Below, piece by piece: positions 25,990 to 37,752 of a DNA stretch of 64,000 nucleotides. The position numbers were made by a program, and so were the translations under genes. Under the pieces are notes generated by a model. That model did no database searches. It had not been told where the DNA came from and saw only the letters and a list, made by a program, of their open reading frames with translations. How positions within the stretch are numbered: the stretch's first letter is position 1; each line of letters begins with the position of its first letter. This stretch comes from a virus, in IMG/VR virus record IMGVR_UViG_3300022926_001804, positions 81,947 to 145,946 of that record, one strand, 5' to 3'.

Positions 25990-26820
25990 ATGAATAAAAG
26001 AGTAAATTACCTCAACAATAAAGATATTTTAAAAGAAATACACAAATCAAAGAGTACATTCTGTAGTTTTACTGCACCCGAATACTCTCAATATGATGTT
26101 ATTTTACCTAGTGTAGATAAGATTAATATTCGTACTATTGCCGAAGCTAAAAGAGCACAAGCAAAAAGACTACAACAAGAAAATTTTGAAAAAGCTAAAG
26201 AAGCTGGACAAAAAAGAAAACTAGCTGAATTTGAAATCGATTATAAAAAGATAAAGAAAGAAGAACTTATTTTTCGTATTATGACGTTTGATCACATTCC
26301 GGAAGAACCAGGTCGTAAAAAGAATCCTAAAACTGTAGCAGACACTAAAGTTAAACTTAACTTTCCTCCGTTCCAACATTACAAATTTAACGAAAATGAC
26401 GAACTAGTTTGTGTAGGAAAAAGTCACTGGGTTGGCGGAATGGAAAATGGTTACTTTGATAAAGATAGCGGTAAAGCAACAAATAAACTAGCATTAATGT
26501 GGATGAAATTATGTGATCGTTATGCTACTCGTGGTAATGTGCGCGGATATACCTATAACGACGAAATGCGTGGACAAGCTATCTTGCAATTAGCACAGAT
26601 TGGCTTACAGTTTGATGAGTCAAAATCAAACAATCCATTTGCCTACTATACAGCCGCAGTAACTAACTCATTTGTACGTGTTATCAACATTGAAAAGCGC
26701 AATCAAAACATTCGAGACGATATTCTTGAAATGAATGATATGAGTCCATCGTATACTAGACAATCACAAGGCGAATGGGAGAGAAACTTAGAAAGATCAA
26801 AAAATGATGCATCAAAGTAA
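25990..26820 (+). CDS. 55: Late transcription sigma factor gp55
   Basis: 276 residues; T4 gp55 has 185. The C-terminal half is family-like: NKLALMWMKLCDRYATRGN, YTYNDEMRGQAILQLAQIGL, SNNPFAYYTAAVTNSFVRV, then NIEKRNQNIRDDIL. gp55 is a small sigma that binds host core polymerase and directs it to TATAAATA-like late promoters, many of which occur in this window. The lysine-rich N-terminal 110 residues (KRAQAKRLQQENFEKAKEAG) are an extension with no clear T4 counterpart. Transcribed from a perfect sigma70 promoter and followed by gp47/gp46, as in other T4-like genomes. Confidence 0.94.
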   Translation: MNKRVNYLNNKDILKEIHKSKSTFCSFTAPEYSQYDVILPSVDKINIRTIAEAKRAQAKRLQQENFEKAKEAGQKRKLAEFEIDYKKIKKEELIFRIMTFDHIPEEPGRKKNPKTVADTKVKLNFPPFQHYKFNENDELVCVGKSHWVGGMENGYFDKDSGKATNKLALMWMKLCDRYATRGNVRGYTYNDEMRGQAILQLAQIGLQFDESKSNNPFAYYTAAVTNSFVRVINIEKRNQNIRDDILEMNDMSPSYTRQSQGEWERNLERSKNDASK

Positions 26821-32535: not shown

Positions 32536-32766
32536 TTACCAAAAATCTTTTCCAGTTTTTTTAGATTGTTCTAAGTTGTCTTTGATAACGTTGTTAATAA
32601 TCTGACGATCTTCAACAGTTAATTCGTATGCTTCGATAAGAGAAACTGCTCCTCGCATCCACCAGCAAGTTTTTACTAGCTCAGTTTTAATTTCCGTTAC
32701 CTGTTTTTCTAGGATTTTAACCTCGGTTTGGATTTTATCGAGGTCCCACGTTAAAATCCTTAGCCG
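32536..32766 (-). CDS. -1 frame extension of gp26, reached by predicted programmed frameshift
   Basis: From the slippery site, the -1 frame is open for 76 codons to a TAA at 32536-32538. The peptide looks real: a heptad-like helix LDKIQTEVKILEKQV, then TCWWMRGAVSLIEAYELTV and EDRQIINNVIKDNLEQSKK, ending GKDFW. It has no credible start of its own: the first in-frame ATG (32658) would give only 40 residues and lacks a spaced ribosome binding site, and upstream only ATT or ACG are available. A ribosome slipping at T TTT TTC would make a fusion of 369 residues (293 of gp26 plus 76). In lambda and P2 such fusions are tail assembly chaperones. Coding nature is well supported; the mechanism is inferred. 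Confidence 0.75.
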   Translation of the reverse strand, partial: RLRILTWDLDKIQTEVKILEKQVTEIKTELVKTCWWMRGAVSLIEAYELTVEDRQIINNVIKDNLEQSKKTGKDFW

Positions 32767-32772
32767 AAAAAA
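32711..32772 (-). other. Predicted -1 ribosomal frameshift signal (slippery site and stem-loop)
   Basis: Minus strand. The heptamer T TTT TTC (32772-32766) is in the correct X XXY YYZ phase with gp26 codons TTT and TTC, one codon (GGC) before the stop TAA. A 5-nt spacer GGCTA follows. Then AGGATTTTAAC (32760-32750) pairs perfectly over 11 bp with GTTAAAATCCT (32721-32711). Inside the 28-nt loop, CTCG can pair with CGAG, stacking on the outer stem. Confidence 0.78.
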
Positions 32773-33644
32773 TTGCTTTGGTCAAACGTAACCGGAATTG
32801 AATATACTTTAGGTGCACCGGCAGCAATTTCTTCTTCGGTCGCTTCAACATCAACAGGTGCTTGTGTAAACTTTGCTCTTTGATCTTTAATATGTTCTTG
32901 AATTTGATTAAAAGTTTTTGCTTCACAGTTTGATAAGAATTCAGTTAAATGTATTCTGTTAGTTACTGCAACGTCATCCCCGTCGGGCTGTATTGCTGTA
33001 ACACTTTCAATCATAACATTAAGATTAATATCTGTTAGTTTTCTAAAACTATCTTGAAATTGTTTAAGTTTTTGCCCGTCATCAAGTGAATTATCATTAA
33101 CAATATTAAAAATTCTTTGTTGTTCAAATGCTTTAATACTTTGTTCAGTAGATGTTTTATATGATACTGGTTTAATTTCTACAGCAAACCCTTCAATTTG
33201 AAATGTATCTTCAAAAGTAGTATTTGTATATTTGTCATAAAGATTTTGCAGATTAAATTGAAAATCTTTAGTAATTTCAGTATTAGGAATCTGCGTAGTC
33301 ATATCAATAGTTTCGCCAAAGCTAGCCATTCTGATTGCAATTAATATTGTATCTAAATCAATTGACGGTGTTTGCCATGCATCTTTAATAGCAGGAACAC
33401 AACTCTGAATAACATCAACAGTTGCTTGACCGTTTAACAACGCATCAGGCGTTTTAAATGCAATTTCATCTCTTGCGGTCATTGCGTATACAGCAAACTC
33501 TCCTGATTCAGGAATTTCAATAGAGCCAACTGGCCAATATTTTCCTTTACTTGGAAGTCTGATGTAAATTTTTGGTTGTCTTAAGTGTTTTGCTAGTGGA
33601 TTTCCACCAACGATCCCCGGTTTAGGGATATTATTATCTACCAT
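32760..33644 (-). CDS. 26: gp26-like baseplate hub / tail assembly protein
   Basis: 294 residues ending SNFFG; T4 gp26 is 208. Family-like parts are RQPKIYIRLPSKGKYWPVGS, AMTARDEIAFKTPDALLNGQ and VIQSCVPAIKDAW. T4 gp26 was classed as a hub protein; later baseplate structures, as I recall them, do not show it, which fits an assembly factor such as a tape-measure chaperone. It lies head-to-head with the tape measure gene. The start is ATG with GGAG upstream and a CCATAAATAG late promoter-like motif about 40 nt away. Its 3' end carries a frameshift signal that adds 76 residues. Confidence 0.82.
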   Translation of the reverse strand: MVDNNIPKPGIVGGNPLAKHLRQPKIYIRLPSKGKYWPVGSIEIPESGEFAVYAMTARDEIAFKTPDALLNGQATVDVIQSCVPAIKDAWQTPSIDLDTILIAIRMASFGETIDMTTQIPNTEITKDFQFNLQNLYDKYTNTTFEDTFQIEGFAVEIKPVSYKTSTEQSIKAFEQQRIFNIVNDNSLDDGQKLKQFQDSFRKLTDINLNVMIESVTAIQPDGDDVAVTNRIHLTEFLSNCEAKTFNQIQEHIKDQRAKFTQAPVDVEATEEEIAAGAPKVYSIPVTFDQSNFFG

Positions 33645-33720: not shown

Positions 33721-36024
33721 ATGGCAGTAAAAATTGATATCCCCGGAGTAGGCGAAGTTACAGCAGAAAATGCGGCTTCAGAAGCTACTTTACGTGAAAT
33801 ACTTAAAACATTAGGTGGGAAATCTTACGGCATGGACGGTGGTGGCGGCATGTCTGGTACTGGCACTAATGCAGAAGAAGCTGCCAAACAAGTTAAAAAA
33901 CACGGTGACGCTAGTGAAGAAGCTGGTGTTCAAGTAGAAGGCTTTGGAGCAAAATTAGACGGATTTGTAGGAGGTATATGGAATACTTTTACAGCCGCAA
34001 TTGGCGCCGTTGTTGGTTCTACTGTAGGATTAGGCTTTGAATTATTAAAAGGCGGAAATCAACTTAGTGATTTTGCTCAACATTTACCTATTCCAGGATT
34101 AACAGCATTTTCTGGATTAATCGACGGACAAATAAATTTATTTAGAGAGTTATCTCAGTCAGGTGCAAGTTTTGGCAACAATATGTTTGAAATTACACGC
34201 ATCGCAGGTAATGCGGCAATACCACAAGAAGAATTTGCTGAATTATTGCGAACACAATCATCAAGTTTAAGACTTTTTGGAAATAGTGTTAATGATGGTG
34301 CTCGAAATTTTGCTTCTATGTCAAAAGAAATGCGTCAAGGCGGAATTGGTCCTCGCTTAATGGCAATGGGATTTACCTCGCAAGAATTAAATGAAAACTT
34401 TATTGCATACAATGAAATGATGACAGTTTCTGGGCGTCGCCAGTTTATGACTAATGCCCAGCTTATTGAAGGATCACAGAACTATTCATTAGAACTAGAT
34501 AAAATATCCAAACTTACTGGTAAATCTAGAGAGCAACTTCAAGAAGAAATGCGTCAAAAGAATATGGACATTAGACGCCAAATGGCAATTGCAAAATATG
34601 GAGAAGAATATGCTCTTAGATTACAACAAGCGGCTGAAGTAGGCGGCCCAGCGTTTGAAGCAGCCATTCTTGATATGGCTGACGGTGTTGAAAACGATCC
34701 TTTGACACGACAGTTGATGGCAAACAACGAAGCATTTCGAAATGGCATTAATGACGTTCAGAATATGACTGCTGAAGAGTTTACTAACTTTGCCGCTAGT
34801 GTTAGACAATCAGGTATGGACTATGCCAATAGTATGGGCGAGAACGCAGTCCAAGCTTCTATTGCAAACGGAACTGCGGTTGGAGAACTATTTCAGTTAA
34901 CAGGTGCACTTGGTAGAGCAACTGGAACAGTTGAAGGAGGAGTATCAGCTGAACAGCAAGCACGAGACGATGCTACTGCGGCTGTTGCAACTTTTGCTGA
35001 AACTATTAACGATGTAAGAGGAAGACTTCAAGTTGATCTATTAGACAGTAATATCTTCCAAGATCTTAAAAACGGCCTAGCAAGTATAATTCCTTCTATC
35101 GGCGAAGCTAACAGTATGTATGATGATATGAAGGGCTTTTTTATGTCTAATATTTTTCCTGCACTAGACGATATGTGGACTTGGCTTAAAACTGACGGCC
35201 TAAATATGTTACAAGAGAGTATGGAATCAGCATGGAACTGGTTAAAGACTGACGGCGTTGAACTAATGGACAGTGCATTTACTAAAATGACAGAAGCATG
35301 GAATTGGTTAAGTTCAGGCGAAGGTTATACTATGATGCAAAATGCCATAACTGGATTAACAGAGCTATGGGATTCGTGGAAGCCATCGATTATGGGATTC
35401 TTTGAAAACTTAACAAGTGCTGAAGGTAGAGCAGAAATATGGCAAAGTATTGTTGATGGTGCAAAAAGTGCCCTTTCGGCAATATTTACAGGCGTTGTAT
35501 CTATGTTAGGATGGGATCAAATTGGACCTACTTATGAAGATTTAAAACAATCAGTTATTGATACTTTAGTTGATTGGAAAAACAAGTTTGTAGAAATGTT
35601 TACTTGGGAAAATATACGAAGTACATTTACTATTGAAAACATTGGTACAGCATTAGGAAATGCTGTTAGAGGTGTTTATAACTGGATTACAGGGTTGTTT
35701 GATTTTGATTTTGGTGGAATGATAAGTTCTGTAATACCAGACTGGGCAAAACGTTGGTTACCAGACAGCTGGTTTGGTGGGCCTTCTTCTAATCCTAGTG
35801 GATCACCCTCACCTAGTCCTAGTAGTGCAATACCAGAAGCTGACACATCGTCAAGTTCTGCTCCTTCACCAACTAATGATCCAGCAATGCGAACTGCTAC
35901 CAATGCCACATCTCCATCTAATAATCCTGTAAGTGACTTAAATACTAATACTGCAAGGATGGTAGCATTATTAGAACAGCAAAATAGACTATTGCAGAGA
36001 ATGGACGGTAACTTATATGGTTAA
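33721..36024 (+). CDS. Probable tail tape measure protein
   Basis: 767 residues; T4 gp29, the tape measure, has 590. Features fit: long helical stretches, a Gly/Ala hydrophobic segment (FTAAIGAVVGSTVGLGFELL, about 86-105), repeated Trp-containing helices near 480-540 (MWTWLKTDGLNMLQESM, AWNWLKTDGVELMD) and a Ser/Pro-rich region near 690-740 before a C-terminal helix. The block SMSKEMRQGGIGPRLMAMGF (about 200-219) looks conserved and folded. The neighbour gp26 shows a tail-chaperone frameshift, which supports the tape measure role; such proteins set tail length and enter the cell with DNA. Start: ATG directly after a weak GTGAG site. Not a recognised gp29 match, so the name is inferred. Confidence 0.68.
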   Translation: MAVKIDIPGVGEVTAENAASEATLREILKTLGGKSYGMDGGGGMSGTGTNAEEAAKQVKKHGDASEEAGVQVEGFGAKLDGFVGGIWNTFTAAIGAVVGSTVGLGFELLKGGNQLSDFAQHLPIPGLTAFSGLIDGQINLFRELSQSGASFGNNMFEITRIAGNAAIPQEEFAELLRTQSSSLRLFGNSVNDGARNFASMSKEMRQGGIGPRLMAMGFTSQELNENFIAYNEMMTVSGRRQFMTNAQLIEGSQNYSLELDKISKLTGKSREQLQEEMRQKNMDIRRQMAIAKYGEEYALRLQQAAEVGGPAFEAAILDMADGVENDPLTRQLMANNEAFRNGINDVQNMTAEEFTNFAASVRQSGMDYANSMGENAVQASIANGTAVGELFQLTGALGRATGTVEGGVSAEQQARDDATAAVATFAETINDVRGRLQVDLLDSNIFQDLKNGLASIIPSIGEANSMYDDMKGFFMSNIFPALDDMWTWLKTDGLNMLQESMESAWNWLKTDGVELMDSAFTKMTEAWNWLSSGEGYTMMQNAITGLTELWDSWKPSIMGFFENLTSAEGRAEIWQSIVDGAKSALSAIFTGVVSMLGWDQIGPTYEDLKQSVIDTLVDWKNKFVEMFTWENIRSTFTIENIGTALGNAVRGVYNWITGLFDFDFGGMISSVIPDWAKRWLPDSWFGGPSSNPSGSPSPSPSSAIPEADTSSSSAPSPTNDPAMRTATNATSPSNNPVSDLNTNTARMVALLEQQNRLLQRMDGNLYG

Positions 36025-36036
36025 GGAAACAAATAA

Positions 36037-37752
36037 ATGAGTTGGAAAAGATATTTTACACCGGTAGAAACTGGTAATGTAAGCCCATTCTCGTCAGCAA
36101 GTAGTGGACAGCCTGGACCGGCAAAATCAAATTATAGTAGTTTCCTTCCTGATGTCTATAGCGGAGCTCCAAATAGAGCAGAACGTTATGGACAATATAA
36201 TGTTATGGATATGGATAGTGAAGTTAATGCGGCACTAGATATTCTTGCTGAATTTTGTACACAGCAAAATCCACAAAATAAAACCAGTTTTAGTTTAGAC
36301 TTTAAACAAAAAGCTACTAATAGCGAAATTAAAGTACTCGAAAACTACTTGCAACAATGGACTAGACTTAATAGTTTTAATACGAGAATGTTTCGTATTA
36401 TTAGAAATGTGTTTAAATTTGGTGATGCATTTTTTATTAGAGATCCAGAAACTAAAAAATGGCATCACGTTGATCCTGCAAAAGTTTCAAGTATCATTGT
36501 TAACGAAAGCACAGGAAAAACTCCTGAGCAATATATTGTAAAAGACATTAACTTAAATTTTGTTGATAAAGTAGCAACTACACCTTATACAACTAACGGC
36601 AACGTAACTGGAGGCGGTGACGGCTATTTAACTGGCGGTGTTAGAGGAATGGTTGGTAACACATCAACACAGAGTTCAAGTTCAAGATTTGGTCACGATA
36701 AACAAAAAGAATTTGCTGTTGATGCTGAACATATGGTACATTTAAGTCTAAGTGAAGGCTTAGATAATAACGCTCCATTTGGTAACAGTCTATTAGAAAC
36801 TATTTTTAAAGTTTATAAACAAAAAGAATTGCTTGAAGATGCGATTATTATCTATCGCGTACAAAGAGCTCCAGAAAGAAGAGTATTTTATGTTGATGTG
36901 GGTAACATGCCTTCACACCTTGCTATGCAATTTGTGGAGCGTGTAAAAACGGAAATCCATCAAAGAAGGATCCCATCGAAGACAGGAGGCGGAACTAATG
37001 TCATAGACTCAGCTTATAATCCTCTGTCAACCAACGAAGATTACTTCTTCCCACAAACTGCTGAAGGTAGAGGATCTAAAGTTGATACACTACCAGGCGG
37101 TACAAACCTTGGTGAGATTGACGACTTAAAATACTTTACTAATAAACTTATTAGAGGTTTACGTATTCCAAGTTCATATTTGCCAAGTGCGGCACAAGAT
37201 GAAGGACAAGGCCAATTTAACGATGGTAGAGTTGGAACAGCATATATTCAAGAATTGCGTTTTAACAAATATTGCGAGCGTTTACAAAATTTAGTTACAG
37301 AAGTTTTTAATTTAGAATTTAAACGTTATCTAGTAGAAAAAGGAATTAACATTGATGTTGCGATGTTTGACCTTGTGTTTCAACCACCACAAAACTTTGC
37401 AAGTTATAGACAATCAGAACTTGATAATCAAAGGATTGGTACGTTTGCACAAATACAAGCTATTCCGTTTATTAGTAATAGATATGCATTAAAGCGTTTC
37501 TTAGGAATGAGCGATGCAGAAGTTGCAGAAAACGAACGTTTATGGAAAGAAGAAAACGACGAATTAGTAGTTAGTCCAACAGATGCAAGTGCAGAAATGC
37601 GAGGAGCAGGAATTAGTGGAGCAGGTATTGAAGGTGATTTAGGAAGCGCAGTTGATACAGCAGACGATGCAGAAGAACCTACAGTAACAGGTACCGACGA
37701 AGGTCCTGAAAGTGCTACTACACCAGCACCAGAACCTACGCCAGAGGCATAA
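36037..37752 (+). CDS. 20: Portal protein gp20
   Basis: 571 residues, near T4 gp20 (524). Typical portal sequence: RYGQYNVMDMDSEVNAALDI, TRMFRIIRNVFKFGDAFFIR, YRVQRAPERRVFYVDVGNMP, DSAYNPLSTNEDYFFP and LRIPSSYLP. The twelve-fold portal sits at one vertex of the head; it starts head assembly and is the DNA channel joined to the neck. An acidic Ala/Thr/Pro-rich tail (from about 520) is probably disordered. AAGGAAAC lies upstream; the gene begins 12 nt after the tape measure stop. Confidence 0.96.
   Translation: MSWKRYFTPVETGNVSPFSSASSGQPGPAKSNYSSFLPDVYSGAPNRAERYGQYNVMDMDSEVNAALDILAEFCTQQNPQNKTSFSLDFKQKATNSEIKVLENYLQQWTRLNSFNTRMFRIIRNVFKFGDAFFIRDPETKKWHHVDPAKVSSIIVNESTGKTPEQYIVKDINLNFVDKVATTPYTTNGNVTGGGDGYLTGGVRGMVGNTSTQSSSSRFGHDKQKEFAVDAEHMVHLSLSEGLDNNAPFGNSLLETIFKVYKQKELLEDAIIIYRVQRAPERRVFYVDVGNMPSHLAMQFVERVKTEIHQRRIPSKTGGGTNVIDSAYNPLSTNEDYFFPQTAEGRGSKVDTLPGGTNLGEIDDLKYFTNKLIRGLRIPSSYLPSAAQDEGQGQFNDGRVGTAYIQELRFNKYCERLQNLVTEVFNLEFKRYLVEKGINIDVAMFDLVFQPPQNFASYRQSELDNQRIGTFAQIQAIPFISNRYALKRFLGMSDAEVAENERLWKEENDELVVSPTDASAEMRGAGISGAGIEGDLGSAVDTADDAEEPTVTGTDEGPESATTPAPEPTPEA

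Follow-up and report, generated by a model that had tools for sequence, protein, structure and literature searches.

A conserved candidate -1 frameshift site in the gp26-type putative tail-assembly chaperone gene of jumbo and marine T4-related phages

RESULTS

The gp26 locus ends in a candidate -1 frameshift junction

The window analyzed here is a 64,000-nucleotide stretch of a 145,946-bp viral contig. Judged from its sequence, the phage is related to T4 and, by its relatives, is a jumbo phage of which the contig is a 146-kb fragment. The zero frame of gp26 ends in AAT TTT TTC GGC TAA, with a single sense codon between the slippery heptamer and the stop codon. The stem that follows is perfect over its 11 bp and encloses a 28-nt loop, and the -1 frame continues to a TAA at 32538-32536 (Table 1). 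Translation in the zero frame would yield 294 residues, and the -1 form would have 369 residues. The sequence-only reading of this DNA had proposed a programmed -1 frameshift at this position; upon re-reading, its heptamer, phase, 5-nt spacer, 11-bp stem, and open -1 frame were exact to the base, and both product lengths follow from the coordinates of gp26 and the -1 frame. When the 39 open reading frames (ORFs) of at least 100 amino acids in the window were scanned, counting the -1 frame past the stop, only gp26 had both an in-phase X XXY YYZ motif among the final 15 codons and at least 60 open codons in the -1 frame. Elsewhere in the window, the ORF at 25990-26820 on the plus strand carries an in-phase AAAAAAT near its end, with a -1 frame that stays open for 34 codons beyond the stop.

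Table 1. Features of the gp26 region, in window coordinates
Feature	Position	Strand	Basis
gp26 short form, 294 aa, predicted tail-assembly chaperone of the T4 gp26 family	32760..33644	-	PF12322, phrog_150, AlphaFold/Foldseek
Slippery heptamer T TTT TTC, in phase	32766..32772	-	Sequence; T TTT TTY in 50/50 jumbo-type loci
Spacer GGCTA, 5 nt	32761..32765	-	Sequence
Downstream stem, 5' arm AGGATTTTAAC	32750..32760	-	Pairs over 11 bp with 32721-32711
Downstream stem, 3' arm GTTAAAATCCT	32711..32721	-	Pairs with 5' arm, 32760-32750
-1 frame, FF + 76 codons + stop; predicted C-terminal domain of the 369-aa long form	32536..32772	-	Open frame, homologues, selection, AlphaFold
Divergent neighbor, 767 aa, possibly the tape measure or another virion protein	33721..36024	+	Position and length only
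T4-type portal gp20	36037..37752	+	PF07230, E 1.8e-110

The short form of gp26 matches PF12322 (E 1.2e-10; 41.9 bits, with a cutoff of 24.5) and phrog_150, annotated as baseplate hub (E 5.3e-16), and it is the sole PF12322 match in the contig. Its AlphaFold model (pLDDT 84.1) has T4-like baseplate hub proteins as its top Foldseek matches. A Foldseek search of the PDB with the short form gave nothing at E ≤ 0.001, with the HK97 chaperone 2ob9 at rank 18 (E 2.8), and a sequence search of the PDB gave nothing credible. For the -1 peptide, the AlphaFold model is a helical hairpin with a mean pLDDT of 87.6. Neither family scans with this peptide nor a sequence search of the PDB returned anything credible, the matches to SKA1 and wHTH being weak, and a fold search returned nothing at E ≤ 0.001, a Moogle tape-measure chaperone being among the weak matches. 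Residues F1, F2, R3, I14, W37, M39, and R40 are invariant in 18 aligned -1 peptides from the window's side of the family.

The divergently transcribed 767-residue neighbor of gp26 has no Pfam or PHROGs match, and its sequence found no match in 8 of the 9 records tried. It shows no similarity to T4 gp27, gp28, or gp29, and we do not put it forward as the tape measure. On the minus strand, a 4,989-codon open frame extends from window position ~14105 down past position 1 (C1:96051-81082 on the contig itself); it lies directly downstream of a gp6-like wedge gene and probably encodes a giant tail or baseplate protein.

The heptamer and the -1 frame are conserved in jumbo-type relatives

A tblastn search with the window's gp26 returned 61 phage records at E ≤ 1e-5, every one with less than 60% identity. 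The nearest named relatives are jumbo myoviruses, namely, Sinorhizobium phage Phosso, Agrobacterium phage Atu_ph07, and phages of the PA5oct, 121Q, and RaK2 types. The -1 peptide alone recovered Phosso and two records of Atu_ph07 in the frame that a -1 slip predicts. We assembled a jumbo-type set of 50 loci (31 clusters) from 18 of the 61 tblastn records and 32 of 33 IMG/VR loci; L025 was left out because its contig ends inside gp26. Among all rows of the analysis, L059 yielded no gp26 end. The gp26 encoded by seven IMG/VR contigs (L020-L026) does not differ from that of the window in the part available.

In all 50 loci, an in-phase T TTT TTY leads into an open -1 frame. The heptamer is T TTT TTC except in XacN1 and CM1, which have T TTT TTT; 1 to 11 sense codons separate it from the stop, and the -1 frames begin with FFR, FFQ, or FFY. 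The codon preceding FF ends in T in 31/31 clusters (log10 P -8.2) even as it encodes eight different amino acids (N, S, H, R, D, Y, A, and L), and the first Phe codon is invariably TTT. The same junction is found in contigs L020-L024 and L026.

Beyond the stop codon, the -1 frame is conserved as protein. Leave-one-out profiles identified the -1 peptides as homologous in every one of the 31 clusters (E 2e-11 or better), while the best of 30 shuffles per cluster reached 0.087 or worse. The pN/pS ratio of this frame was 0.00 to 0.56 in 17 of 18 pairs, which share sequences with one another, indicating purifying selection; the remaining pair (L037/L038) differs by two changes only and is uninformative. 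The two other frames mostly gave values of ~1 or >1 and contained stops. The credibility of the junction comes from its conservation in relatives rather than from the single window sequence. Since the rows tested are mutually related, the p values are optimistic. The proposed frameshift held up in these comparisons, both in the alignment of gp26 loci and in the codon substitution pattern; the stem, considered below, is frequent yet not universal.

A significant helix follows the heptamer at a ribosomal distance in 15 of 31 clusters

Taken alone, the window's stem is marginal (z -2.0), with 10 of 200 dinucleotide shuffles equally good. Against recodings that preserve the -1 protein, run on L020, which is identical in sequence there, the p values were 0.057 for the helix and 0.020 for the energy. 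Across the jumbo-type set, a helix whose 5' arm starts 4 to 9 nt after the heptamer was significant against such recodings in 15/31 clusters (Fisher 2e-11). At five other offsets, the Fisher values were 0.047 to 0.99, and controls within the gp26 body were positive in 3/93 cases; the enrichment at 4 to 9 nt, the ribosomal spacing, was absent at 12 to 17, 20 to 25, and 28 to 33 nt. The loops in the 15 positive clusters range from 11 to 51 nt, and the 3' partner therefore sits at differing places; the helix seems to be kept across these clusters though its 3' partner is nonhomologous. No significant helix was found by this test in the other 16 of the 31 clusters, which include the RaK2/GAP32-type phages of enterobacteria and Xanthomonas (L002 and L008-L012; p 0.2 to 0.9). 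Conservation of the stem, unlike that of the heptamer, is borne out in only part of the set.

Cyanophage-type contigs and further isolates share the site

A search with the gp26 of Synechococcus phage S-SCSM1 retrieved at least 600 IMG/VR stretches, of which the best 80 formed a cyanophage-type set. All 80 of these best matches contain T TTT TTC, one sense codon, the stop, and an open -1 frame encoding a gp51-like peptide, a frame that runs into the contig end in L126 and L143. In this best-80 set, 86.8% of cells preserve the pairing of a 5-bp hairpin after the heptamer, 5/5 pairs show two-sided changes (44 cells versus 10.5 in shuffles), and the folding energy is favorable (mean z -2.3). The helix position test was not significant in the same set, with 9/77 at offsets 4 to 12, below the 18/77 at offsets 16 to 24. 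The sequence-only reading had placed the gp26 of T4-like marine phages in the frameshifting class. The cyanophage-type contigs do share the site, but the nearest named relatives of the window's gp26 are the jumbo myoviruses and not cyanophages.

Eight of ten further isolates (S-RIM8, DSL-LC02, S-CAM8, Bakedbeans, phi-ST2, ZPAH1, Yut2, and S13) also have the site and the -1 frame. In S-CAM8 (L153), ZPAH1 (L156), and S13 (L158), the conserved -1 frame carries no annotated gene. A scan of viral contigs with the gp26 of Bakedbeans found no relative. There are two exceptions. S-SCSM1 (L054) retains the slippery site, but its gp51-like part is in the +1 frame; it has 11 extra nucleotides after the gp26 stop relative to L067, reflecting either a real change or a sequencing error. 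Pseudomonas phage Cygsa01 (L154) has no heptamer, and its downstream part starts by a TAATG overlap, apparently a third way of making this part.

Alternatives to ribosomal frameshifting

We considered whether the -1 part could instead be a separate small gp51-like gene with its own or a coupled start just after gp26, expressed with no frameshift. A small ORF with its own start is annotated in this frame in 14 of the 17 annotated jumbo records (the other three annotate nothing, and none annotates a joined gene), and the TAATG overlap in Cygsa01, which lacks the heptamer, is an arrangement of this kind. Some relatives have an ATG near the slip, and additional independent translation is therefore possible there. 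In the window, however, the first start in the -1 frame is the ATG at codon 39 (32658), which is inside the conserved domain and has no recognizable ribosome-binding site, as expected from the original description of a frame without a usable start. Phage Cassandra (L003) of the PA5oct group lacks any ATG, GTG, or TTG across the entire -1 frame, 7/31 clusters have no start codon ahead of codon 31, and the first start, where there is one, lies anywhere between 12 codons ahead of the slip and codon 39. All 18 aligned peptides keep the FFR of the -1 frame upstream of the start, and T TTT TTY and the NNT codon before it are fixed although the gp26 protein has no need of them. Taken together, these observations make a separate gene improbable.

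Slippage of RNA polymerase on the T run would give mixed mRNAs and hence both forms; the run consists of six T's in the window and seven in XacN1, CM1, and L045. However, six T's is short for polymerase slippage, the heptamer is TTTTTTC in 29/31 clusters, and the helices are enriched at the ribosomal distance and not at the three more distal ones; we regard this explanation as even less probable than a separate gene. Virtually no weight falls on gene decay or an error in sequencing or assembly, in favor of which nothing was found: the junction is identical in L020-L024 and L026, the same architecture recurs in isolates and contigs, and purifying selection acts on the -1 frame. We therefore favor, with a probability of roughly 0.92 on sequence evidence, the reading that gp26 is a T4-type tail-assembly chaperone made in two forms by a programmed -1 ribosomal frameshift.

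Relationship of the -1 extension to T4 gp51

T4 and AM101 have two PF12322 genes (26 and 51) and no heptamer; the T run is absent from T4, nine T4-type contigs, and AM101. Of the 20 records with the site, which include four possibly incomplete contigs, the window's own and three others, 19 have one PF12322 gene; none was detected in SCTP-2, whose locus nevertheless contains the site. A single PF12322 gene is also present in Cygsa01 and in S-SCSM1.

Profile comparisons used a gp51 set that excludes the incomplete row L065, and the hhalign E values quoted apply to a single comparison. The fused products of cyanophage/Vibrio/Aeromonas-type phages matched T4-type gp51 over its length (P 98.9%, E 2e-17), and their -1 peptides matched the gp51 end (P 96.5%, E 8e-10). 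The jumbo fused products matched those cyanophage/Vibrio/Aeromonas-type fused products with P 99.6%, versus 37 to 44% for gp51 itself. The jumbo -1 peptides matched those of other frameshift phages, a profile in which 20 of the 77 cyanophage-type products were combined with 8 isolates, with P 80% and E 1e-5; compared directly with the gp51 end, they gave no significant match (P 4 to 7%). A match of the -1 part to the C-terminal extension of T4 gp51 is seen through intermediate phages but not in the direct comparison.

We consider it likely that a single frameshifting chaperone gene is ancestral in the T4 superfamily, spanning RaK2/PA5oct/Atu_ph07-type jumbo phages, cyanophages, and members of Schizotequatro-, Ishiguro-, and Menderavirus, and that it was later replaced by T4 genes 26 and 51 through duplication and in-frame fusion of the duplicate. 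If so, the small "gp51" ORFs that have been annotated separately or missed would encode the latter half of the long gp26 product.

DISCUSSION

Phage lambda G/GT and P2 E/E' are tail-assembly chaperones made as a short form and a -1-frameshifted long form, the slip taking place shortly before the short ORF ends. By the mechanism that we propose for gp26, most ribosomes would terminate after FFG and release the 294-residue short form. Some, probably stalled by the stem 5 nt downstream, would shift backward by one base at U UUU UUC, with tRNA-Phe re-pairing from UUU-UUC to UUU-UUU. Slipped ribosomes would bypass the stop and append the 76-residue helical hairpin, giving the 369-residue long form. 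The short and long forms may, by analogy with lambda G/GT, jointly hold the tape-measure protein during tail tube building and then leave. We infer the occurrence of slippage, its rate, the chaperone role, and the client.

In PMC3004832, T4 gp26 and gp51 appear as hub-assembly chaperones, and genetic evidence placing gp26 in the T4 hub is cited as well. According to PMC5852040, gp26 was undetected in XacN1 virions and also in RaK2 virions, and the XacN1 authors attribute its absence to low abundance or sample preparation. For phage CBB, whose sequence record labels gp26 a structural protein, PMC5259590 gives a table with 29 peptides for CBB_251, the virion protein encoded in the position of the window's 767-residue neighbor, and with no entry for CBB_250, which from gene order would be gp26. 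The nondetection of gp26 in virions fits an assembly factor without proving it.

A 2022 study by Vladimirov, Gautam, and Davidson reportedly deals with T4-like tail-assembly chaperones and may overlap part of the present finding. It is cited in both PMC10885494 and PMC12846349, which also describe the general G/GT logic. In PMC10885494, some T4-like phages are said to rely on a short gene and a longer, fused one in place of frameshifting, and PMC12846349 presents poly-T slippery sites as known in TAC-N genes of T4-like phages. The word "frameshift" is absent from the main texts of the papers on Atu_ph07, CBB, and XacN1, and the literature searched, which covered few subscription journals, gave no description of a frameshift site in RaK2-type jumbo phages. 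The initial remark that no report was known for this phage group is accordingly uncertain.

The frameshifting chaperone is a known device, as in lambda G/GT; here, on comparative sequence grounds, numerous giant phages and marine T4 relatives very probably have it in conserved form. The two-form logic of the lambda chaperone would then extend to T4-type phages of the jumbo and marine groups, which would explain why "gp51" is annotated in them as tiny, oddly started, or absent. A natural contrast would also arise with T4, which uses two genes (26/51) rather than frameshifting to fix the ratio of two assembly factors.

The closest parallels differ in part from the window's gp26. The cyanophage gp26/"gp51" pair has the same T TTT TTC and -1 frame (in the best 80 of at least 600 contigs and in S-RIM8, DSL-LC02, and S-CAM8), but a short covarying hairpin ~10 nt after the heptamer takes the place of the longer stem, the -1 peptide is ~60 residues long, and S-SCSM1 is exceptional. 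T4 gp26 and gp51 belong to the same PF12322 family, and gp51 would be the unshifted equivalent of the cyanophage/Vibrio/Aeromonas-type long form; in T4, however, the two genes are divergently transcribed and the heptamer is absent. Lambda G/GT and P2 E/E' resemble the gp26 arrangement proposed here in their two forms and in the location of the slip site, whereas gp26 in the window is divergent from its neighbor and not in line ahead of a tape measure. Finally, the chaperone of phage Adele (Vandenendeviridae), with its conserved GTTTTT -1 site as given in PMC12846349, follows the same logic on the same type of evidence, albeit in another lineage and with another slip motif.
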